Below the pieces are notes generated by a model that saw only the letters and a list, made by a program, of their open reading frames with translations, had not been told where the DNA came from and ran no database searches. A stretch of 64,000 bases of DNA from contig JAMORC010000063.1 in NCBI GenBank assembly GCA_027063785.1, positions 1 through 64,000 on the forward strand, given 5' to 3'. Positions 1 to 10,902 of the stretch are shown here, one piece after another. Source of the stretch: Desulfurobacteriaceae bacterium (GTDB lineage Bacteria > Aquificota > Aquificia > Desulfurobacteriales > Desulfurobacteriaceae). Every line of letters starts with the position of its first letter. Position 1 is the stretch's first letter. Both the position numbers and the translations under genes were made by a program.

Positions 1-449
1 TAGTTGATAAAGACCTAAAGATTCCTATCCACTGCCGATTAGTAAAAGAAAGGGCAGAGGACTTGATAGTCATAACGGCTCAGCGCTCTTTACTTGAATA
101 CAAGGCGGGAATTTTGCGGGATGCAGGAGTAACACTGCTTTCTGTTAATCAGTTTGGGGAATATCTCGATCTTAAAGAAGCCTTGACTGCTTTGAAAGAA
201 GAACTGGAAATTTACTCTGTAATGTGTGAAGGAGGACCAACTTTAGCAGGTTTTTTGATGGATGAAGGTTTAGTTGATAAACTCTTTCTCTTTGTTGCCT
301 CTAAGTTGTTCGGAGATTCTCCTTACGGTATTGCTAAAGGTGTTGAATTCATGGTCGGTTCGGAGAAAGAAATGTTGCTGGAGCAGGTTCTGTGTTACAA
401 TCGGAATGAGATTTTGCTCACTCTCCGCCCGGGAGGTAAGGTTGGATAA
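1..449 (+). CDS. ribD: RibD C-terminal reductase domain (5' truncated by window edge)
   Basis: Last 148 or so residues of the riboflavin-pathway deaminase/reductase; the reading frame is open to the left edge, so the N-terminal deaminase domain lies outside. The visible part matches the reductase domain: a VVD-type strand near the start, a MCEGGPTLAGFLMDEGLVD stretch (the usual GG...L...LVDE region that contacts NADPH and substrate), then a LFG(D/S) segment. It reduces the ribosyl-aminopyrimidine intermediate in the cytoplasm. Its stop overlaps the proposed TTG start of the next gene by 8 bases, suggesting co-transcription with the glycan genes, although function links them poorly. Confidence 0.82.
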   Translation, partial: VDKDLKIPIHCRLVKERAEDLIVITAQRSLLEYKAGILRDAGVTLLSVNQFGEYLDLKEALTALKEELEIYSVMCEGGPTLAGFLMDEGLVDKLFLFVASKLFGDSPYGIAKGVEFMVGSEKEMLLEQVLCYNRNEILLTLRPGGKVG

Positions 450-1692
450 GATTACTGTGTTTGTTAGGGGAGGTATTAGGAGTAAACTTGCTGATTCTTT
501 GTTGATGAATAAAGCGTTGATAGACAAAATTTATGTGTTTTCTGAAACAGAAAGTAATCTGGATATCTCGATTCCGATTGAGGTTATTAAAGCAAATACT
601 TCTGTGGAAGCTTTTAATTTGGTGGTTAAAAATGATGTCTCGAAATACCTTCTTTTTCTGGATCCGAACGTTTATTTTGAGGAAGATCTGGTTGAAGAGT
701 TGATTGAAGAAGCTGAAGATAGTTCGGCAGATATAGTTTTCCCAAACCTTATTTCTGTTCGGGATGGTAAAGAAAATGTTATTAATAATGTTATTAATTT
801 TGAACAGCTGTATGGGAAGGAGATAGCTGTACTTCAAACACTTTCTCTTGAAAAGTGGATTCCGGGTCAGGTTTTGTTGTTCAAGAGAGAATCTATTGTA
901 AATGGAGGATATTTTGATGAAGAGTTAGGAGATTACTACATTCACGACTTTATATATAGAAACTTAAAGAAGTTTAGAATAAGGTTGTCCGAGTTTTCCT
1001 TTGCTTATTATGAGGAGGAAACTAACGATTTTAATGATCTATCCAATTCGTGGAAAAGTTTCGTTTTACGGAATAGGGTATTGAAGAACTACGACTGGGA
1101 AGAAGATATATTTCCTTTCCTTTCCTGGAAGGAAAGGCCGGAGATAGCAAAAGCTACTGCTTTAACTTTGATAGGTAAAAAACTGTCCGAGTATCTGGAT
1201 TACTTTAATGCATCTGATTACTTTAGAAAAGCTTTAATGAATTTTCATAATCAGGAGACTTTGAACCTTCTTGTTAATGCATATTTTACAATGGGTTTGT
1301 TTGAAAAAGCCAAGGAGTTATTATCTCCACTGCATGGGGTTCCGAGAGAAAAAGCAGAAGAGAAGAAAGAACATATTGAAAAAGTTGAGTCTTTAATTTT
1401 TGAGCTTGAGAAATTGGCAGAATTGGGAAGGGTAGATGAACTTAACCAGATCTTTTCATCAGTTTTAAAAGTTTATTGCGGTGCACCGGTTTATAATATA
1501 TTAGGTTTTCTGGAATGGATTCAGGGTAACAAAGAAGGAGCGTACCGCTACTTCTTCAGGGCAACATTGATGAATCCTATAGATCAGGATTACCTTTACA
1601 ACTTGGCTAAAGTAGCGAAGGAAATTTCCAGGGAGGAAGAAGTAAAGAGTCTTATTAAGAACCTGGTGGCAGATGGAGATTCCAAAGGATAA
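442..1692 (+). CDS. GT2-like glycosyltransferase with C-terminal TPR-like region
   Basis: About 416 residues. The open frame reaches further left but only as a shadow of ribD; the TTG at 442 is chosen because GGGAGG sits 5 bases upstream (431-436). The N-terminal ~200 residues have the alpha/beta pattern of a GT-A fold, with a hydrophobic strand ending in FLDPN near residue 74 where a DxD motif is expected, so donor-metal binding may be degenerate. Residues from about 240 on are helical and TPR-like. First of four clustered sugar-transfer genes upstream of flagellin. AT-rich. Donor and acceptor cannot be read from the sequence. Confidence 0.62.
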   Translation: MDKITVFVRGGIRSKLADSLLMNKALIDKIYVFSETESNLDISIPIEVIKANTSVEAFNLVVKNDVSKYLLFLDPNVYFEEDLVEELIEEAEDSSADIVFPNLISVRDGKENVINNVINFEQLYGKEIAVLQTLSLEKWIPGQVLLFKRESIVNGGYFDEELGDYYIHDFIYRNLKKFRIRLSEFSFAYYEEETNDFNDLSNSWKSFVLRNRVLKNYDWEEDIFPFLSWKERPEIAKATALTLIGKKLSEYLDYFNASDYFRKALMNFHNQETLNLLVNAYFTMGLFEKAKELLSPLHGVPREKAEEKKEHIEKVESLIFELEKLAELGRVDELNQIFSSVLKVYCGAPVYNILGFLEWIQGNKEGAYRYFFRATLMNPIDQDYLYNLAKVAKEISREEEVKSLIKNLVADGDSKG

Positions 1693-3769
1693 GATAAAGG
1701 AATTCCTATCTGGGACGGTTTTAAAGTTACTCAATAATTTTTCAGAAAGTCCGGATTATAGGGAATGCTTTCTGGGGGATAGAAATTTAATCTCCTACTC
1801 TTTCAAGGATTCCGCCTATTTCTATTTAGTAGAAACGGAAAAGGCTAATACTAACTTTTTAAACTTACTTAAAGTTGGTGAGTTTTGGCTTTATGCAGAT
1901 AGAAAATACTACTCTTATTTCCTCAAGAAAGGTTTGATACTTCCTGTTGTTTCTATCTGTATACCAGTTCATGTCTCGCGAGTTTCTGAATTTTGCAGGA
2001 CGGTTTTGAGTTATTGGAAGAAACAAGTATTTATTAATGAGGATCTGTACGAATTAATTATAGTTGTTAATGGTGACTTTGAAGGAAATATATATGGAAC
2101 CCTCGAGAAGAGTCTCAAGGAAAGTGGTTTGAATTACGATATAGTGTGGTCAAAAGAGCCAAACATTGGCAAAGCCAGAGCTTTGTCTGTTGGAGCTGCA
2201 AGTGGAGAACTGCTGCTTTTAGTTAATGATGATACTGTGCCAGAAGAAGACTTGTTATATAAACATGTTACGTATCAGGCCTTTTTGTGGGATGAAAGAG
2301 TAGCTGTAATTGGAACTTTTCTTATGCATGATTCTCTTATTGATACTTCATTGCATAGGCTTATAAGGGATTTCGGTTTAGATTTCCCTCAGAATAAATT
2401 TAAACCTGGAAGTTACAAACTTAATATTTTTGTTACCAATAATACCTCTATCAAAAAATCTTTGGTTTATAGTGCAGGTAATTTTTCTCCTTATTTTAAA
2501 AAGGGAGCTGAGGATTCTAAGCTTGGTTTTGATTTGCTTAATACCGGAGTTAAGTTTATTCTTATAAAAGATATTAAGGCCTATCATTATCATAAAGGTT
2601 ATTTTGATAAGTTGGATCAAGTTTATCTCAACAGAGGAAGAACGAATTTCCATCTGATAGAATCTAATAATGAATTTTGGAAGGTATTGGCTATATCTTC
2701 TATTGAAAATGAGCTTGATGATTGGAAGAAATTTATTCCCGATTTCCCGGTTAAAGAAGCACTTATTCAAATGCTTAAGTATGAGTGTTTATACTTTAAG
2801 GGAATTGTCGATGAGGCGAAAGACTTCTGTTTCTTTAAACACGCCTTTAATAGACGTTTTGATTATCCGAGGATTTCTGTGATTATGCCTGCCTATAATG
2901 CAGAAAAGACAGTTTATAGGGCTATAGAAAGTGTAATCTCTCAAGATTATCCAGATTTTGAGTTGATTGTTGTGGATGATGCTTCAAATGATAATACGTG
3001 GAAGAAGATAACAAGGGCGGCGAATAAATATGAACGACTTAAGGTTTTTCGAAATAGTAGGAGAATGGGGCCATCGGGAACCCGTAACAGGGCAGTCAGG
3101 GAGGCTTCAGGGGATTACATAGTATTCCTTGATGCTGATGACGTTATGCTCCCGGGTTCTTTAAAGCTTAGAGCGTTAGGCATTCTGTATTCCGAGGCCG
3201 ATTTTCTCTATACTCAATACTTGGTTGCAGACTATTCTGCTAAGAAACTTTTTATAAAGTCGACTTTCGTCTCTGATAACTTTGATTACTTAGTAAAGGC
3301 TCAGATTGGGGGAAATGTCTTTCCGATAGGAGCGGTTATCCTTGAGAAAGATTTAATTGAAAAGGCAGGTCTGTTCAATGAGTCAATTACTTATGGAGAA
3401 GATTACGAGCTGTGGACAAGGATTTTGTTAAAGTTGAGGCCGAAAGTAAAGTTTCTGCCTTTTCCTTCTTACATTTACAGTGTTTTTGACAGAAGAGTTT
3501 TAACTTCCAAGCCGAATCTTGATCCTGCTCTTTTAGAGGTGCTTAAGCTTCTGGACGAGGAAGGTTTTCTAAACTCTGTTGAGTTTGTTAAGAAAGCAAT
3601 TCTCTTTTTACTTAGTAGAAACGTAGTCGAGTCTACTTTAAAGAGTATAGCCCGGTTATTTATTAGACTTAAAGCTTTAGATCAGAGGGAAGCAAGAGCC
3701 GTTGAGAAGTACCTGATGAGGGCTTTAGGGGATCAGTTCCTTAAAGTTTTGAAAGAAGAGGATAAATGA
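1673..3769 (+). CDS. Tandem-domain GT2 glycosyltransferase
   Basis: 698 residues containing two family-2 glycosyltransferase domains. The first starts near residue 92 (VVSICIPVH) and carries a VNDDT acidic motif near 185. The second starts near 398 (ISVIMPAYNAEKTV), with VVDDAS near 432, FLDADD near 486 and a GEDYELWTRIL acceptor-side motif near 575, the more canonical of the two. Two active sites in one chain suggest it adds two different sugars or works as a polymerase, as in capsule synthases. It overlaps the preceding gene by 20 bases and the following gene by 4, so translation is probably coupled. Probably cytoplasmic, assembling a surface or flagellar glycan. Confidence 0.78.
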   Translation: MEIPKDKIKEFLSGTVLKLLNNFSESPDYRECFLGDRNLISYSFKDSAYFYLVETEKANTNFLNLLKVGEFWLYADRKYYSYFLKKGLILPVVSICIPVHVSRVSEFCRTVLSYWKKQVFINEDLYELIIVVNGDFEGNIYGTLEKSLKESGLNYDIVWSKEPNIGKARALSVGAASGELLLLVNDDTVPEEDLLYKHVTYQAFLWDERVAVIGTFLMHDSLIDTSLHRLIRDFGLDFPQNKFKPGSYKLNIFVTNNTSIKKSLVYSAGNFSPYFKKGAEDSKLGFDLLNTGVKFILIKDIKAYHYHKGYFDKLDQVYLNRGRTNFHLIESNNEFWKVLAISSIENELDDWKKFIPDFPVKEALIQMLKYECLYFKGIVDEAKDFCFFKHAFNRRFDYPRISVIMPAYNAEKTVYRAIESVISQDYPDFELIVVDDASNDNTWKKITRAANKYERLKVFRNSRRMGPSGTRNRAVREASGDYIVFLDADDVMLPGSLKLRALGILYSEADFLYTQYLVADYSAKKLFIKSTFVSDNFDYLVKAQIGGNVFPIGAVILEKDLIEKAGLFNESITYGEDYELWTRILLKLRPKVKFLPFPSYIYSVFDRRVLTSKPNLDPALLEVLKLLDEEGFLNSVEFVKKAILFLLSRNVVESTLKSIARLFIRLKALDQREARAVEKYLMRALGDQFLKVLKEEDK

Positions 3770-5124
3770 TGAAAACTTATGCAATTATTTTAGCTGCAGG
3801 GAGAGGTCGTAGGTTCGGTTCTTCAACTCCTAAGCAGTTTTTAAAGTTATCAGGAAAAACTGTTATTGAACATACTATTTCTGCCTTTGAAAAACACAGA
3901 ATGATTGATGAAATTATAGTGGTAACTTCTCCGGATTACGTTTCAAAAGTTGAGGAATTAATTTTAAGAAACTCCTGGATGAAGGTATCAAAGGTAATAA
4001 TTGGAGGAGAAACAAGGCAGGAAAGTTCCTATTTCGGGATATCCTCTATTGAAGAGGATGAAGCCTATGTCCTTATACATGATGCTGTTAGGCCTTTTGT
4101 TTCAGAAAAGGTAATATCAGATGTTCTGGAGAGCTTAAAAAAATATGATGCTGTTGATGTTGCGATTCCGTCTTATGATACAATTATAAAGATTAATGAC
4201 TCTATGATAATAGAGGATATTCCTTCTAGGAAATATCTTTGGAGAGGTCAAACTCCCCAAGCTTTTAAGCTTTCTGTTATAAGAAAAGCTCATTATCTGG
4301 CTAAGGAAGACGGGTTTTTAGAAGCTACTGATGATTGTAGTTTGGTACTTAAATATGGTTTGGCAGATGTTTATGTAATTTCAGGAGAGGATAGGAATAT
4401 AAAAATAACGACTCCCCTGGATATGTATTTGGCAGATAAACTTTTCCAGCTAAGTATGACGAACTTAGCAAAATTACCTGTCGACTTGGATGTTTTAAGG
4501 GGAAAAGTTGGAGTTATTTTTGGCTCAAGTAGAGGTATTGGTAAATCACTGTTCCAGCTATTAAAAGAATTTGACGTAAAGGTATATGGTTTTTCGAGAA
4601 GAAATAGGTGTGATGTCAAAGATCCGAAAGATGTAAGAGATGCTTTAGAAAGCGTGTATCAAAGGGAGGGGGCAATTGATTTTGTTGTGTTAACCGCAGC
4701 TGTTCTGCGAAAAAAACCTCTCTTTTCTATGACTTACGAGGAAGTAATTGATCAAGTTCACACTAACTATGTGGGGGCTATAAATGTGGCTAAAGAGTCT
4801 TTTGATTATCTAAAAGAATCCAGGGGACATCTGGTTTTCTTTTCTTCAAGTTCTTACAGTAGAGGTAGAGGATTTTATTCTATTTATTCTTCAACAAAGG
4901 CAGCTATTGTGAATTTAGTACAAGCACTTGCAGAGGAATGGATGGACTTTGGAATAAAGGTAAACGCAATTTCTCCGGAGAGGACTGCTACTCCTATGAG
5001 GTTTGAGAATTTTGGTAAGGAGCCTTCGGAGTCTTTGCTTTCTCCGGAAGAAGTAGCTTTTGAGACCTTGAAAGTACTTACTTTGGATATTACTGGTCAG
5101 GTGGTGGAGGTTAAGCTTAAGTGA
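3766..5124 (+). CDS. Fused IspD/TarI-like cytidylyltransferase and SDR reductase (CDP-ribitol synthase type)
   Basis: 452 residues in two parts. Residues 1-230 are an IspD/TarI-type cytidylyltransferase (IILAAGRGRRFGSSTPKQF near the start, HDAVRPF in the middle). Residues 244-452 are a short-chain dehydrogenase with GSSRGIGK (about 251-258) and a YSSTK catalytic pair near 374-378. This architecture is that of Haemophilus Acs1/Bcs1, which reduces ribulose-5-phosphate to ribitol-5-phosphate and couples it to CTP to give CDP-ribitol. A plain IspD would have no SDR domain. The next gene is a polyol-phosphate transferase, which supports this role. Two adjacent ATGs (3766, 3769) are possible starts. 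Confidence 0.8.
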   Translation: MMKTYAIILAAGRGRRFGSSTPKQFLKLSGKTVIEHTISAFEKHRMIDEIIVVTSPDYVSKVEELILRNSWMKVSKVIIGGETRQESSYFGISSIEEDEAYVLIHDAVRPFVSEKVISDVLESLKKYDAVDVAIPSYDTIIKINDSMIIEDIPSRKYLWRGQTPQAFKLSVIRKAHYLAKEDGFLEATDDCSLVLKYGLADVYVISGEDRNIKITTPLDMYLADKLFQLSMTNLAKLPVDLDVLRGKVGVIFGSSRGIGKSLFQLLKEFDVKVYGFSRRNRCDVKDPKDVRDALESVYQREGAIDFVVLTAAVLRKKPLFSMTYEEVIDQVHTNYVGAINVAKESFDYLKESRGHLVFFSSSSYSRGRGFYSIYSSTKAAIVNLVQALAEEWMDFGIKVNAISPERTATPMRFENFGKEPSESLLSPEEVAFETLKVLTLDITGQVVEVKLK

Positions 5125-6170
5125 AAGTGCTATTTATTAATAGAATGGATTCTTTCCCGGTTGATAACTGTAAGTATTTATTCCTTGAAATGTTACATTC
5201 TTATGGGTCTAAATTTGAGCTTTTTTACGCTGTTTCGGATTGGTTTTATTCGAAGATTGATCCCAACTTTGTTGGTAGTGTGTTACCTTATAGTAAGGTT
5301 AATAAGATTCTGGAAGATGTTGATATTTTAATCATAGATTCTTGGCTTGATAGAAATCTTACTGTGGATGGGAATCGAGTTTTACAGTTATGGCACGGTA
5401 TTGGTGTTAAAAATCTTAAAAAGGTTTCATTAAATTTTTACAATCCAAGGTTTACTAAGTATTTACTTGTTACGTCGGAGGAAGTTCTTTACCTTTTCGA
5501 AAATTTTCAGTATGAGAAACTTTTAGTCTCAGGATATCCCAGGAATTTAGCTTTAATTAAAAGTAAGCCTGAATATATGTGGGAGTGTGATCTGAGGGCT
5601 ATTGAAAGGATTGAGAATTTTAGTGGAAAAAAAGTGTTTCTTGCACCAACTTTTCGCAGGGATGGTCCAATTCTAAGAGTATATAATGTATCCTTTTTCG
5701 AAAGACTAAATCGTTTTGCCTGTAAATATAACCTACTTTTTGTTATAAAACTCCATGCGGTTAACGCATTTGATTTCAATATGCTACGTTCGTTGGAAAA
5801 GAACTTTTCTAATCTTGCATTCTACGATCCGAGCAGAGATATATACCCAGCCTTAGCTTATGCTGACTTTCTTATTACTGATTATTCCTCGATCCTTTTT
5901 GACTTTTTCTGGTTAGAAAAAGAATTTTTGTTATATCTGCCGGATTTTGAAGACTTACTTGCTAAGGAAGAACTTGTTACCTCCGGTGTTGTTTCTGAAA
6001 TTTGGAATTGGGCTCCTATAGTTAAAAGTGAAGTACATCTCTTTAAGTATTTAAAAAGCTGGTTAAAGGGAGGATCGTTAGTTGATCTGACAAAGGTAAG
6101 AGTGCTGAGAGATAAGGTTTTTAAAAATCAGTACAATTGTACAAATAAGATATTATCTGTACTAACTTGA
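5121..6170 (+). CDS. CDP-glycerol/CDP-ribitol polyol-phosphate transferase (TagF/TarL-like)
   Basis: 349 residues matching the CDP-glycerol glycerophosphotransferase family: WHGIG near residue 91 (catalytic-region histidine), a VSGYPRN segment, an LAPTFR strand, FVIKLH, and the C-terminal DFLITDYSSILFDF block near 250 that binds the CDP moiety. Such enzymes move glycerol- or ribitol-phosphate from its CDP carrier to a glycan. The GTG start overlaps the stop of the CDP-ribitol-type gene (GTGA), so donor synthesis and transfer are translationally coupled. No membrane segment is evident. Substrate choice (ribitol versus glycerol) is inferred from the neighbour only. Confidence 0.8.
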   Translation: MKVLFINRMDSFPVDNCKYLFLEMLHSYGSKFELFYAVSDWFYSKIDPNFVGSVLPYSKVNKILEDVDILIIDSWLDRNLTVDGNRVLQLWHGIGVKNLKKVSLNFYNPRFTKYLLVTSEEVLYLFENFQYEKLLVSGYPRNLALIKSKPEYMWECDLRAIERIENFSGKKVFLAPTFRRDGPILRVYNVSFFERLNRFACKYNLLFVIKLHAVNAFDFNMLRSLEKNFSNLAFYDPSRDIYPALAYADFLITDYSSILFDFFWLEKEFLLYLPDFEDLLAKEELVTSGVVSEIWNWAPIVKSEVHLFKYLKSWLKGGSLVDLTKVRVLRDKVFKNQYNCTNKILSVLT

Positions 6171-6186
6171 ACAGGGGTGATTTCTT

Positions 6187-7665
6187 GTGAAGATTGGTGC
6201 GTGCATCATAGCTAAAAATGAAGAAAAGAATCTGCCCAGGCTTTTGAGTTCTTTAAGAGGAAAGTTTGATGAGATTGTTTTGGTTGATACTGGATCAGAG
6301 GATAGGACGGTTGAGATTGCCAGAGATTTTGGTTGTAAGGTTGTTCTTCATTCCTGGAACGGTTTTGCTGACGCAAGGAATCGGGCTTTAGATGAGATTT
6401 CTTCAGATATAGAATGGGTTTGGCATTTCGATGCCGATTTTGAGCTGGAAGAGGAGGAATTTCGTAAAGCTTTAATGTACTTGAAAAAATTATCCCCTGA
6501 CGTAGATGGAGTATCAATAGGAATTAAGAGTTTGGATTCTTTCGGAAACGTTAGGGGAATGTCAACTCAGGTTTTTATTCATAGAAACAAAGCTTCCATT
6601 CGTTGGAAAGGCATGGTTCATGAAATTCCGAGCGTGAATTTTATTGCAGGTATACCGGTTTACGTAAAACACTATGGGTATTCTAATTCGGATATCTTAT
6701 TGGCTAAAGCAAAGCGCAATTTAGAATTACTTTTAAAGGAAATTGAAGTTCTTGAGAAAGGATCGAGAGATTACTTAATTAAATTGTTTTACATAGTTCA
6801 AAGTTATACGATTTTGGCTTATGAAGATAAAAAGTACTTAAGCAAGGTTGTTGATTTGGCTGAAGAATTTATTAGTTATTCAGAAAATCGGAAAGATTTA
6901 GGATTTTTCGGATTGTACATCTACAACTATCTCCTATCGGTTTTAAAAGTTTTAAAATTGGATCAGAAGTACGAGTATTACCTTAAAAAAGTACTTAATT
7001 TAAAACCCCATGTTCCGGATTTTTATATCTCGGCCTTTGAGTTTTATATGAGAAAAGGAGAAAAAAAGGAAGCATTTGCTGTTTTAGTGCGTTTGCTTGA
7101 GCTTTTGACAAGTTTAGAAAGATCAACCTTCTCTTTTTCAAGCTCCTTTGCAACCGATAAAGTTTCTGATCTTAAAAGACTTTTCTTATCGAATGATTTG
7201 GCAGAATTTTCTGATAAATCCGAGCTTATAATGGAGGTTTGGAAAAGAGAAAGGTCAAAGTACAGCGGTTTACTGTTAATGAGACTGTTGAGTAACCGAT
7301 ATGAGAAACAAAAGTTGATGAAAAAATTGCTATTGCGTTATCATGAAGACGAGTTTGCCGTTTCTGTTATCTTTTGGGAACTTAAAAAAGGATATGATAT
7401 TGGCTATTTAGAGGATCTTAGAGATAAGCTTAGGGGTAAGTTAGTTTTCTACCTTCTTGAGGGCCTAATACAAGAGCTAAAAGGGAACTTGAAAGCTGCT
7501 ATAGCCAGTTATAGCGGGTTCTTGGAAAAGAAGAAGGATATTTATCTCATAGCGCATGTAGTTTCTCTTATGAAGGATGCAAGTATAAAATCTAAGGAAC
7601 TACCTCCGATAATGAACGTAGAACAGAACAAATTGAAAGGAGGTAGTCATGGCTCTGAGGATTAA
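6187..7665 (+). CDS. GT2 glycosyltransferase with TPR-like C-terminus, next to flagellin
   Basis: 492 residues. The N-terminal ~230 residues are a GT2 domain of the SunS/TPR-glycosyltransferase type: IGACIIAKNEE at the start, LVDTGSEDRTVEIA near 32-45, DADFELEE near 80, and WKGMVHE near 140. The rest is alpha-helical with TPR-like character. A GTG start with an AGGGGTGA ribosome site 7 bases upstream is used. The end of the gene overlaps the flagellin start by 17 bases and contains the flagellin sigma-28 promoter. The location makes it the best candidate for the enzyme that glycosylates flagellin, but this is inferred from context. Confidence 0.75.
   Translation: MKIGACIIAKNEEKNLPRLLSSLRGKFDEIVLVDTGSEDRTVEIARDFGCKVVLHSWNGFADARNRALDEISSDIEWVWHFDADFELEEEEFRKALMYLKKLSPDVDGVSIGIKSLDSFGNVRGMSTQVFIHRNKASIRWKGMVHEIPSVNFIAGIPVYVKHYGYSNSDILLAKAKRNLELLLKEIEVLEKGSRDYLIKLFYIVQSYTILAYEDKKYLSKVVDLAEEFISYSENRKDLGFFGLYIYNYLLSVLKVLKLDQKYEYYLKKVLNLKPHVPDFYISAFEFYMRKGEKKEAFAVLVRLLELLTSLERSTFSFSSSFATDKVSDLKRLFLSNDLAEFSDKSELIMEVWKRERSKYSGLLLMRLLSNRYEKQKLMKKLLLRYHEDEFAVSVIFWELKKGYDIGYLEDLRDKLRGKLVFYLLEGLIQELKGNLKAAIASYSGFLEKKKDIYLIAHVVSLMKDASIKSKELPPIMNVEQNKLKGGSHGSED
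7586..7612 (+). promoter_or_regulatory. Sigma-28 (FliA) type promoter for flagellin, inside the upstream gene
   Basis: TAAAATCT, 11 bases, then TCCGATAA. The FliA consensus is TAAA....-N11-GCCGATAA, so spacing is exact and the -10 element differs at one base. It lies 36 bases before the flagellin ATG, within the last codons of the glycosyltransferase gene, so flagellin can be expressed apart from the glycan operon. Confidence 0.72.
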
Positions 7666-8509
7666 CTACAACTATCAGGCCGACTTTACGCACTTTAACC
7701 TTCTCCAGACGGAAGCAAATATGAACAAATCTCTGGAGAGGCTTGCTACCGGTTATAGGATTAACAGGGCGGCTGATGATGCAGCAGGGCTTTACATTGC
7801 TGATCAGTTAAAGACCTATGCAGTATCTCTTGAGCAGGCTACGAGAAATGCTCAAGACGGTATCTCCATTGCTCAAATCGCTCAATCTGCTCTTACCAAC
7901 GTTTACAACATTCTAAACGACATTAAATCGAAGGCAATTGAGGCTGCAAACGACTCTCAGACTGATGAAACGAGGGAAATTATTCAGCAGGATATTAACA
8001 AGCTTGTTGATGTAATAGGTAAGATTTTTAAGGATACTGAGTTTAACGGAATTAGCTTGTTCGCTCCAAATAAAGCCGTGAGCTTTACAATCCATTACGG
8101 TGGAAGGACGGAACAAACCTTACTAATGCAGGGAGCTACAGCTTCAGCTCAGGCTGCTGACGGTACTGCTGCTCCTTCAACTATTCACTTAGGAACTGTC
8201 AACTACGTCCTTAACGTTACAAGCCAGACCCTTGCAGAGGCAACTATCTCTACTGTTGATGCGCTAATTAAAGAAGTAGATAAGCTTAACTCTAAGTTCG
8301 GTTCTTATCAGATAGAGCTTGAGAAGATAATTACCAACAACGAGAGTCAAAGAATTAACGCCCAGGAAGCTGAGTCCAGGATCAGGAACGTTGACTTTGC
8401 TAAGGAAATGTCTGAGTTTACAAGAAATCAGATTCTTATGCAGTCCGGTACTGCAATGCTTGCTCAGGCTAACCAATTGCCACAGCTTGTTCTTCAGCTT
8501 CTCAGGTAG
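7649..8509 (+). CDS. fliC: Flagellin
   Basis: 286 residues. The conserved ends form the D0/D1 filament core: LERLATGYRINRAADDAAG near residues 30-50 and the C-terminal helix from RIRNVDFAKEM to LVLQLLR. The central variable part (about residues 140-215) is short and rich in Ala, Thr and Ser, plausible sites for O-glycosylation. The start has a strong AAAGGAGG site. A sigma-28-type promoter lies upstream and a strong terminator follows, so this is probably the abundantly expressed filament subunit, exported by the flagellar type III system. Confidence 0.96.
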   Translation: MALRINYNYQADFTHFNLLQTEANMNKSLERLATGYRINRAADDAAGLYIADQLKTYAVSLEQATRNAQDGISIAQIAQSALTNVYNILNDIKSKAIEAANDSQTDETREIIQQDINKLVDVIGKIFKDTEFNGISLFAPNKAVSFTIHYGGRTEQTLLMQGATASAQAADGTAAPSTIHLGTVNYVLNVTSQTLAEATISTVDALIKEVDKLNSKFGSYQIELEKIITNNESQRINAQEAESRIRNVDFAKEMSEFTRNQILMQSGTAMLAQANQLPQLVLQLLR

Positions 8510-10318: not shown

Positions 10319-10675
10319 ATGAATCCTTATCTCAAGATGCAAGTTGATACCTCAACGCCGGTTGAGCGGGTTGTTTTACTCTATGATAAGGCTATTGTAC
10401 TTCTTAAGGAGGCTATTGAGGCGCTGAAGGTTGGCGATATTCCCCGAAAAGTCAATTCAATAGCAAAAGCTGAGAGGATAATTCAGGTGCTTAATTCCTC
10501 CCTTGATATGGAGGCAGGTGGGGAGGTGGCGAAAGTATTAAGGGAATTTTACGATACGGTTTTAGCTGGACTTTTTGTTGCCAATAAAGATAATGATAAA
10601 CAGGTTCTTGAAAATATAATAATGATGTTAGAGGCAGTTAGGGAAGCGTGGGAAGAAGTGAATTCGAAGTTTTAA
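10319..10675 (+). CDS. fliS: Flagellin export chaperone FliS
   Basis: 118 residues, all helical, with the FliS signature VERVVLLYDKAIVLLKEA near residues 16-33 and an N-terminal NPYLKMQV segment. FliS binds the C-terminal helix of flagellin in the cytoplasm and prevents early polymerisation. Placed directly after fliD, as in most flagellar clusters. The next small gene begins before this one ends. Confidence 0.93.
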   Translation: MNPYLKMQVDTSTPVERVVLLYDKAIVLLKEAIEALKVGDIPRKVNSIAKAERIIQVLNSSLDMEAGGEVAKVLREFYDTVLAGLFVANKDNDKQVLENIIMMLEAVREAWEEVNSKF

Positions 10676-10902
10676 GATCAAAGTTGATAGTTTATGTAAA
10701 TGAGGAAAATTACAGAGAGGCTTTGAAGCTTATTTCTTCTCTCTCTGAAAGTTTACCTCAATTTAGTAGAGAAGAGGCAATGGAGCTTATTGCTCTTATT
10801 TCTGAACTTCAGAAGAAGCTTAAGGAAAAAGAGGAAAAGCTTTTAAAGAGCATAGCTGATAAGCTAAAAGTTAAGGGGTCTTACCTGAAATGTTCCTCGT
10901 AA
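10648..10902 (+). CDS. Small helical protein, possible FliT-like chaperone
   Basis: 84 residues from a GTG start that overlaps fliS by 28 bases and ends 13 bases inside bioD. The sequence is predicted helical with heptad-like spacing (ISELQKKLKEKEEKLLKSIA near 51-70). FliT, a chaperone for the cap protein, is a small helical protein encoded right after fliS in many bacteria, so position and size suggest a FliT equivalent. Sequence similarity to FliT is not evident by eye, and the ribosome site is weak. Confidence 0.55.
   Translation: MGRSEFEVLRSKLIVYVNEENYREALKLISSLSESLPQFSREEAMELIALISELQKKLKEKEEKLLKSIADKLKVKGSYLKCSS

Follow-up and report, generated by a model that had tools for sequence, protein, structure and literature searches.

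A predicted CDP-ribitol module in a proposed flagellin glycosylation locus of a Desulfurobacteriaceae bacterium

Ribitol phosphate is a constituent of polymers found in cell walls and capsules. What is the biological function of a putative CDP-ribitol synthase and a TagF-like phosphotransferase that are encoded immediately upstream of the flagellin gene in a Desulfurobacteriaceae bacterium? We addressed this question by analyzing a stretch of 64,000 nucleotides (bases 1-64000 of contig C63; hereafter, the window) from the 1.57-Mb genome of this organism. Based on sequence comparisons, we propose that the genes constitute a flagellin glycosylation locus in which a three-gene slot at 1673-6170, encoding gt2b, a cytidylyltransferase-SDR fusion and the TagF-like protein, probably serves to make a pentitol phosphate (most likely D-ribitol 5-phosphate) and to transfer it.

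Gene layout and a probable flagellin promoter

The locus consists of the following features:

442..1692, + strand: gt1, a degenerate GT2-like protein with a weak C-terminal TPR (PF00535 at 0.00059, below the cut-off; TPR_8 at 0.0012)
1673..3769, + strand: gt2b, a member of the variable slot with two GT2 domains (PF00535 at 7.6e-42, in two stretches)
3766..5124, + strand: Acs1/Bcs1-type fusion of 452 aa (PF01128 and PF00106), a predicted CDP-ribitol synthase
5121..6170, + strand: TagF/TarL/Bcs3-like CDP-alditol phosphotransferase of 349 aa (PF04464 at 2.1e-26), a predicted ribitol-phosphate transferase
6187..7665, + strand: GmaR-like GT2 protein (GT2 at 4.2e-23), a predicted flagellin-priming O-glycosyltransferase
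7586..7613, + strand: sigma28-type promoter for fliC, TAAA-N15-CCGATAAT, inside the GmaR-like gene (full element TAAAATCTAAGGAACTACCTCCGATAAT)
7649..8509, + strand: FliC flagellin of 286 aa (PF00669 at 5.3e-39; PF00700 at 1e-23), the presumed acceptor

The first-pass annotation had assigned five glycan genes and flagellin to this region (442-7665), and all of them are present. Its count of three GT2-type genes is clear for gt2b and the GmaR-like glycosyltransferase but weak for gt1, which falls below the Pfam cut-off. Four of the six GT2 matches in the entire genome are located in the flagellin locus. The genes were also said to overlap one after another, which holds for gt1/gt2b (20 bp), gt2b/fusion (4 bp), fusion/TagF-like (4 bp) and GmaR-like/fliC (17 bp), but a 16-bp gap precedes the gene that starts at 6187. 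In the window, fliC is followed by flaG, fliD, fliS and bioD. An 84-aa open reading frame at 10648-10902 overlaps the end of fliS, is kept in several relatives and has no NCBIfam match. At the opposite end, a RibD C-terminal gene at 3-449, cut by the contig start, lies upstream of gt1, and a ribD gene is also found upstream of the flagellin glycan locus in many relatives.

Do the glycan genes run into flagellin as one transcription unit? The strict sigma28 pattern occurs once in the first 14.5 kb, and the promoter halves TAAA and CGATAAT are aligned in 13/13 genomes compared, with slight changes in two of them (L063 and L067). It is thus probable that fliC is transcribed from its own sigma28 promoter within the last glycosyltransferase gene. 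The earlier description of the genes as running into flagellin is borne out by the 17-bp overlap but not by the probable promoter organization, and co-regulation or co-transcription of fliC with the glycan genes is therefore not implied by adjacency.

GmaR is a flagellin O-GlcNAc transferase that also has a C-terminal TPR region and an antirepressor function. The GmaR-like protein of the window matches Listeria GmaR (PDB 22ao) at 3e-20 over residues 3-186, and because the solved chain comprises the glycosyltransferase domain alone, the likeness covers that GT2 part. The C-terminal region yields a TPR_19 match below the cut-off (E = 0.083). Matches from a search against plasmids span about a third of the protein, in the GT2 part only. 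Homologues of the GmaR-like protein in relatives are 34-47% identical, and those of gt1, present in 13 relatives, are 33-50% identical.

The predicted CDP-ribitol synthase and its transferase

The fusion protein contains an IspD domain (PF01128; 4.6e-58) at residues 6-225, followed by an SDR domain (PF00106; 2.6e-26), with PF00106/PF13561 matches at 280-414. The two domains share one 452-aa open reading frame in the cytidylyltransferase-then-SDR order and are colinear over the full length with an annotated member of the family. In a tblastn genome scan, 552 relatives of the fusion were detected, and for the best 80 of these, identity is 46-56% along almost the entire protein. Full-length homologues are also encoded on a Parabacteroides plasmid and in Proteus mirabilis (49% and 47% identity, respectively). 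The Parabacteroides homologue is annotated as a bifunctional cytidylyltransferase/SDR protein and adjoins a LicD gene, and the surrounding polysaccharide locus also encodes Wzy. Among the best 80 of the 552 loci, 71 carry a LicD- or TagF-like gene in the examined flanks, a count that derives from home-made profiles and in which several of the remaining loci are short contigs. Across the 136 genomes of the phylum that were searched, the fusion is present in the window's genome alone, and the next-best match (5.6e-41) covers the IspD domain alone.

Is the fusion simply an isoprenoid IspD to which an unrelated SDR has been attached? The protein exceeds the cut-off of the general ispD model TIGR00453, as such a reading would have it, but it also exceeds that of the NCBIfam D-ribitol-5-phosphate cytidylyltransferase subfamily (176.6 vs 166). 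Furthermore, the genome encodes a separate IspD (C39:52106-52780). We compared the fusion with 82 fusions, with the housekeeping IspDs of relatives (32 sequences) and with two TarI proteins of known structure (3f1c and 4jis). Residues A129, D131, I152, P153, G161 and C191 are common to the window fusion, most or all of the 82 fusions and both TarI proteins, whereas the 32 housekeeping IspDs differ at these positions. In the tree, a 100/100 branch separates the window fusion, TarI and the other fusions from 34 IspD rows; TarI is placed within the fusions on a long branch, and thus we draw from the tree only the split between fusions plus TarI and IspD. The attached-SDR explanation is strongly disfavoured by these data and hardly credible, and the candidate identity of a housekeeping IspD was rejected on the same three grounds, namely, the separate IspD, the TarI-type residues and the tree split.

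In the SDR domain, the residues N334, S361-363, Y374 and K378 of the N-S-Y-K set and G253/G257/G259 of the G..GIG motif are invariant in a three-sequence alignment (A1), and from general knowledge of SDR enzymes we take them to be active-site residues. We predict that the fusion is an Acs1/Bcs1-type CDP-ribitol synthase that combines a TarI-type cytidylyltransferase with an SDR. The signature residues and the tree strengthen this identity, which had been suggested in the first-pass annotation, and the enzymatic activity is predicted on that basis.

The TagF-like protein passes the PF04464 gathering score (93.2 vs 22.1 bits), and its nearest PDB matches are TarL (5e-10) and Bcs3 (4.9e-8). The LWHG..K, GYPRN, K.H and DYSS motifs are intact. 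Its gene is the sole PF04464 match in the genome, and a genome search identified no LicD; therefore, the TagF-like protein is the only CDP-ribitol consumer of a known type seen in the genome. However, the protein reaches only 44.3 of the 1000 bits required by the NCBIfam TarL equivalog model and is also far under the TarF equivalog cut-off, and its preference for ribitol, glycerol or another substrate is thus not fixed by sequence.

These low scores leave room for a flagellin module of the proposed kind that, through a substrate shift, handles another alditol phosphate (xylitol, arabitol, glycerol or other). The TagF homologue of a related genome (G021, described below) is paired with a different nucleotidyltransferase, and this branch of TagF proteins may accordingly serve several donors. 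Nevertheless, we consider a different alditol rather improbable, given that the fusion shares 46-56% full-length identity with the bifunctional cytidylyltransferase/SDR family and carries the TarI signature. Moreover, Acs1 is a ribulose-5-P reductase/CDP-ribitol pyrophosphorylase according to Follens 1999, as cited in PMC4873967.

A variable slot between conserved glycosyltransferase genes upstream of fliC

Both gt1 and the GmaR-like glycosyltransferase precede fliC in 11 genomes of the same family (G001, G003, G004, G006, G008, G012, G014, G015, G017, G018 and G021). In G004, the GmaR-like gene and fliC are separated by a divergent large GT2 gene. In G007, the contig ends after gt1 and the first part of the GmaR-like gene, and in G024, which belongs to the same class, the GmaR-like gene precedes fliC and the gt1 homologue is on the opposite strand. 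Given that gt1 and the last glycosyltransferase gene precede fliC across relatives, the adjacency to flagellin is not due to chance.

By contrast with these two genes, those between and around them change among relatives. Some of the variable genes encode GT2 proteins that include methyltransferase-like parts, others encode proteins that weakly match sulfotransferases or methyltransferases, and still others encode unassigned proteins. Two slot proteins of approximately 290 aa (L061 8501-9370 and L070 11334-12215) have no significant Pfam or NCBIfam match and are encoded beside the conserved flagellin glycosyltransferases. The slot of G021 (L072 8833-10577) precedes fliC and encodes a LicC/PntC-like nucleotidyltransferase and a TagF homologue. 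The 225-aa nucleotidyltransferase resembles LicC and the nucleotidyl transferase/aminotransferase 6pd1, a PntC-type enzyme. The G021 PF04464 protein is 37% identical to the window TagF-like protein over the alignment (34.5% by BLAST). The flagellins of the window, G003, G001 and G021 are 88-90% identical, although their slots differ.

An independent case is found in Heyndrickxia camelliae (L091), in which a 51% identical fusion and a GT2-TPR-PF04464 protein are encoded between hag and flaG. The latter protein (L091 3656-6727) joins the three parts in 1023 aa. The gene order is flgL-like, fliW-like, hag, the 1023-aa protein, sugar-modifying genes (DegT aminotransferase, acetyltransferase-like and GFO/IDH oxidoreductase), the fusion, DUF6270, GT2-TPR, flaG, fliD and fliS, where fliW, flaG, fliD and fliS were assigned by eye from translations. 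Heyndrickxia camelliae provides the one flagellin-linked locus among the best 80 of the 552 fusion loci, and the fusion was not found in 33 other genomes of its family. The variable slot between conserved genes and this Heyndrickxia flagellin locus strengthen the link to flagellin that the first-pass annotation had drawn, with flagellin as the predicted acceptor.

Could the CDP-ribitol module instead decorate LPS or another surface polysaccharide and lie beside fliC by an accident of insertion? No flagellin is encoded near the other 79 of these best 80 related fusions, and the one annotated fusion neighbourhood that was inspected over its whole length is a polysaccharide locus containing Wzy and LicD. 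In addition, kdsC and an LptC-like gene are located 5-6 kb downstream of the locus. However, these two genes keep their place in relatives with other slots and are thus uninformative on the window slot. The slot itself is flanked by two genes that are associated with fliC throughout the family, and G021 has an independent TagF-like pair in the same position. Moreover, the sole Wzy_C match (O-antigen ligase/polymerase-type) is on another contig, C10. An accidental insertion is therefore unlikely in our view, albeit an alternative to be taken seriously.

Returning to flagellin as the target, we lean towards a model in which an exchangeable slot for a CDP-donor synthase and a TagF-like transferase lies between two conserved glycosyltransferase genes in the flagellin locus of this family. 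The slot in the window would hold a capsule-type CDP-ribitol synthase, and the filament would carry phosphodiester-linked ribitol phosphate.

Proposed pathway and comparison with known systems

How might such a glycan be assembled? The GmaR-like glycosyltransferase would link a sugar to Ser/Thr residues of FliC in the cytoplasm, and gt1 and gt2b may then extend the glycan. Judging from their families, which are evident from the sequence, the SDR domain of the fusion would reduce ribulose 5-phosphate, and the TarI domain would make CDP-ribitol. The TagF-like enzyme, which is assigned by family and motifs, would use CDP-ribitol to add ribitol phosphate to its putative acceptor, the flagellin glycan.

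The Type A glycans of C. difficile and P. aeruginosa are currently explained by a model in which a CDP-donor and a TagF-like transferase decorate flagellin (PMC10714395, PMC11833859). In the proposed C. difficile pathway, CD0240 adds GlcNAc, CD0242 makes CDP-threonine and the TagF-like CD0244 transfers phosphothreonine (PMC10714395). The best explanation for the window locus is a scheme that would follow this logic, with CDP-ribitol replacing CDP-threonine.

If this scheme is true, teichoic-acid and capsule chemistry has been recruited to decorate the flagellum. Phosphodiester-linked modification of flagellin would then be a swappable principle and not a feature peculiar to C. difficile and Pseudomonas, with phospho-threonine in Type A, ribitol phosphate in the window locus and another donor in G021 as the swapped groups.

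Ribitol on flagellin is not a wholly new idea. Ribitol biosynthesis genes were predicted in 2016 in the enterobacterial flagellin glycosylation island type 12 of two strains (PMC4875605). The first-pass annotation had regarded a ribitol-phosphate glycan as not described for flagellin; that prediction and the Type A precedent qualify this view, which holds insofar as no measured ribitol phosphate on flagellin was found in the literature searched, a weak sign of absence given that most subscription papers lay outside the search. The type 12 island resembles the window locus in its predicted ribitol biosynthesis within a flagellin island but belongs to a distant phylum, and because neither a cytidylyltransferase nor a phosphotransferase is mentioned in the main text of that paper, the comparison covers the described function.

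The individual enzymes of the window also have counterparts in known systems. Acs1/Bcs1 of Haemophilus influenzae has the same cytidylyltransferase-then-SDR order as the fusion (PMC4873967). At the sequence level, the comparison was made through full-length homologues annotated as bifunctional cytidylyltransferase/SDR family oxidoreductase. The window fusion adjoins flagellin, whereas H. influenzae Acs1/Bcs1 sits in a capsule locus. TarL, Bcs3 and TagF-like transferases share the PF04464 domain and the four motifs with the window transferase, which differs in being a single 349-aa domain that scores well below the TarL/TarF cut-offs and in its proposed acceptor, the flagellin glycan. In P. aeruginosa, GT2 and phosphotransferase are combined in a single protein, PA1091 (FgtA; PMC11833859), and the 1023-aa Heyndrickxia protein seems alike.

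As a whole, the window locus resembles in composition CD0240-CD0244 of C. difficile and PA1088-PA1091 of P. aeruginosa, which comprise a GT2 protein that acts on FliC, a cytidylyltransferase proposed to make a CDP-donor and a TagF-like phosphotransferase that acts on the flagellin sugar. The donor enzyme differs, being a TarI-SDR fusion in the window and a CD0242-like enzyme in Type A. In addition, Pfam and NCBIfam searches of the five window genes identified no methyltransferase (CD0243-like) or phosphatase (CD0241-like) domain. By analogy, the window locus would work like the Type A pathway but is not itself Type A.
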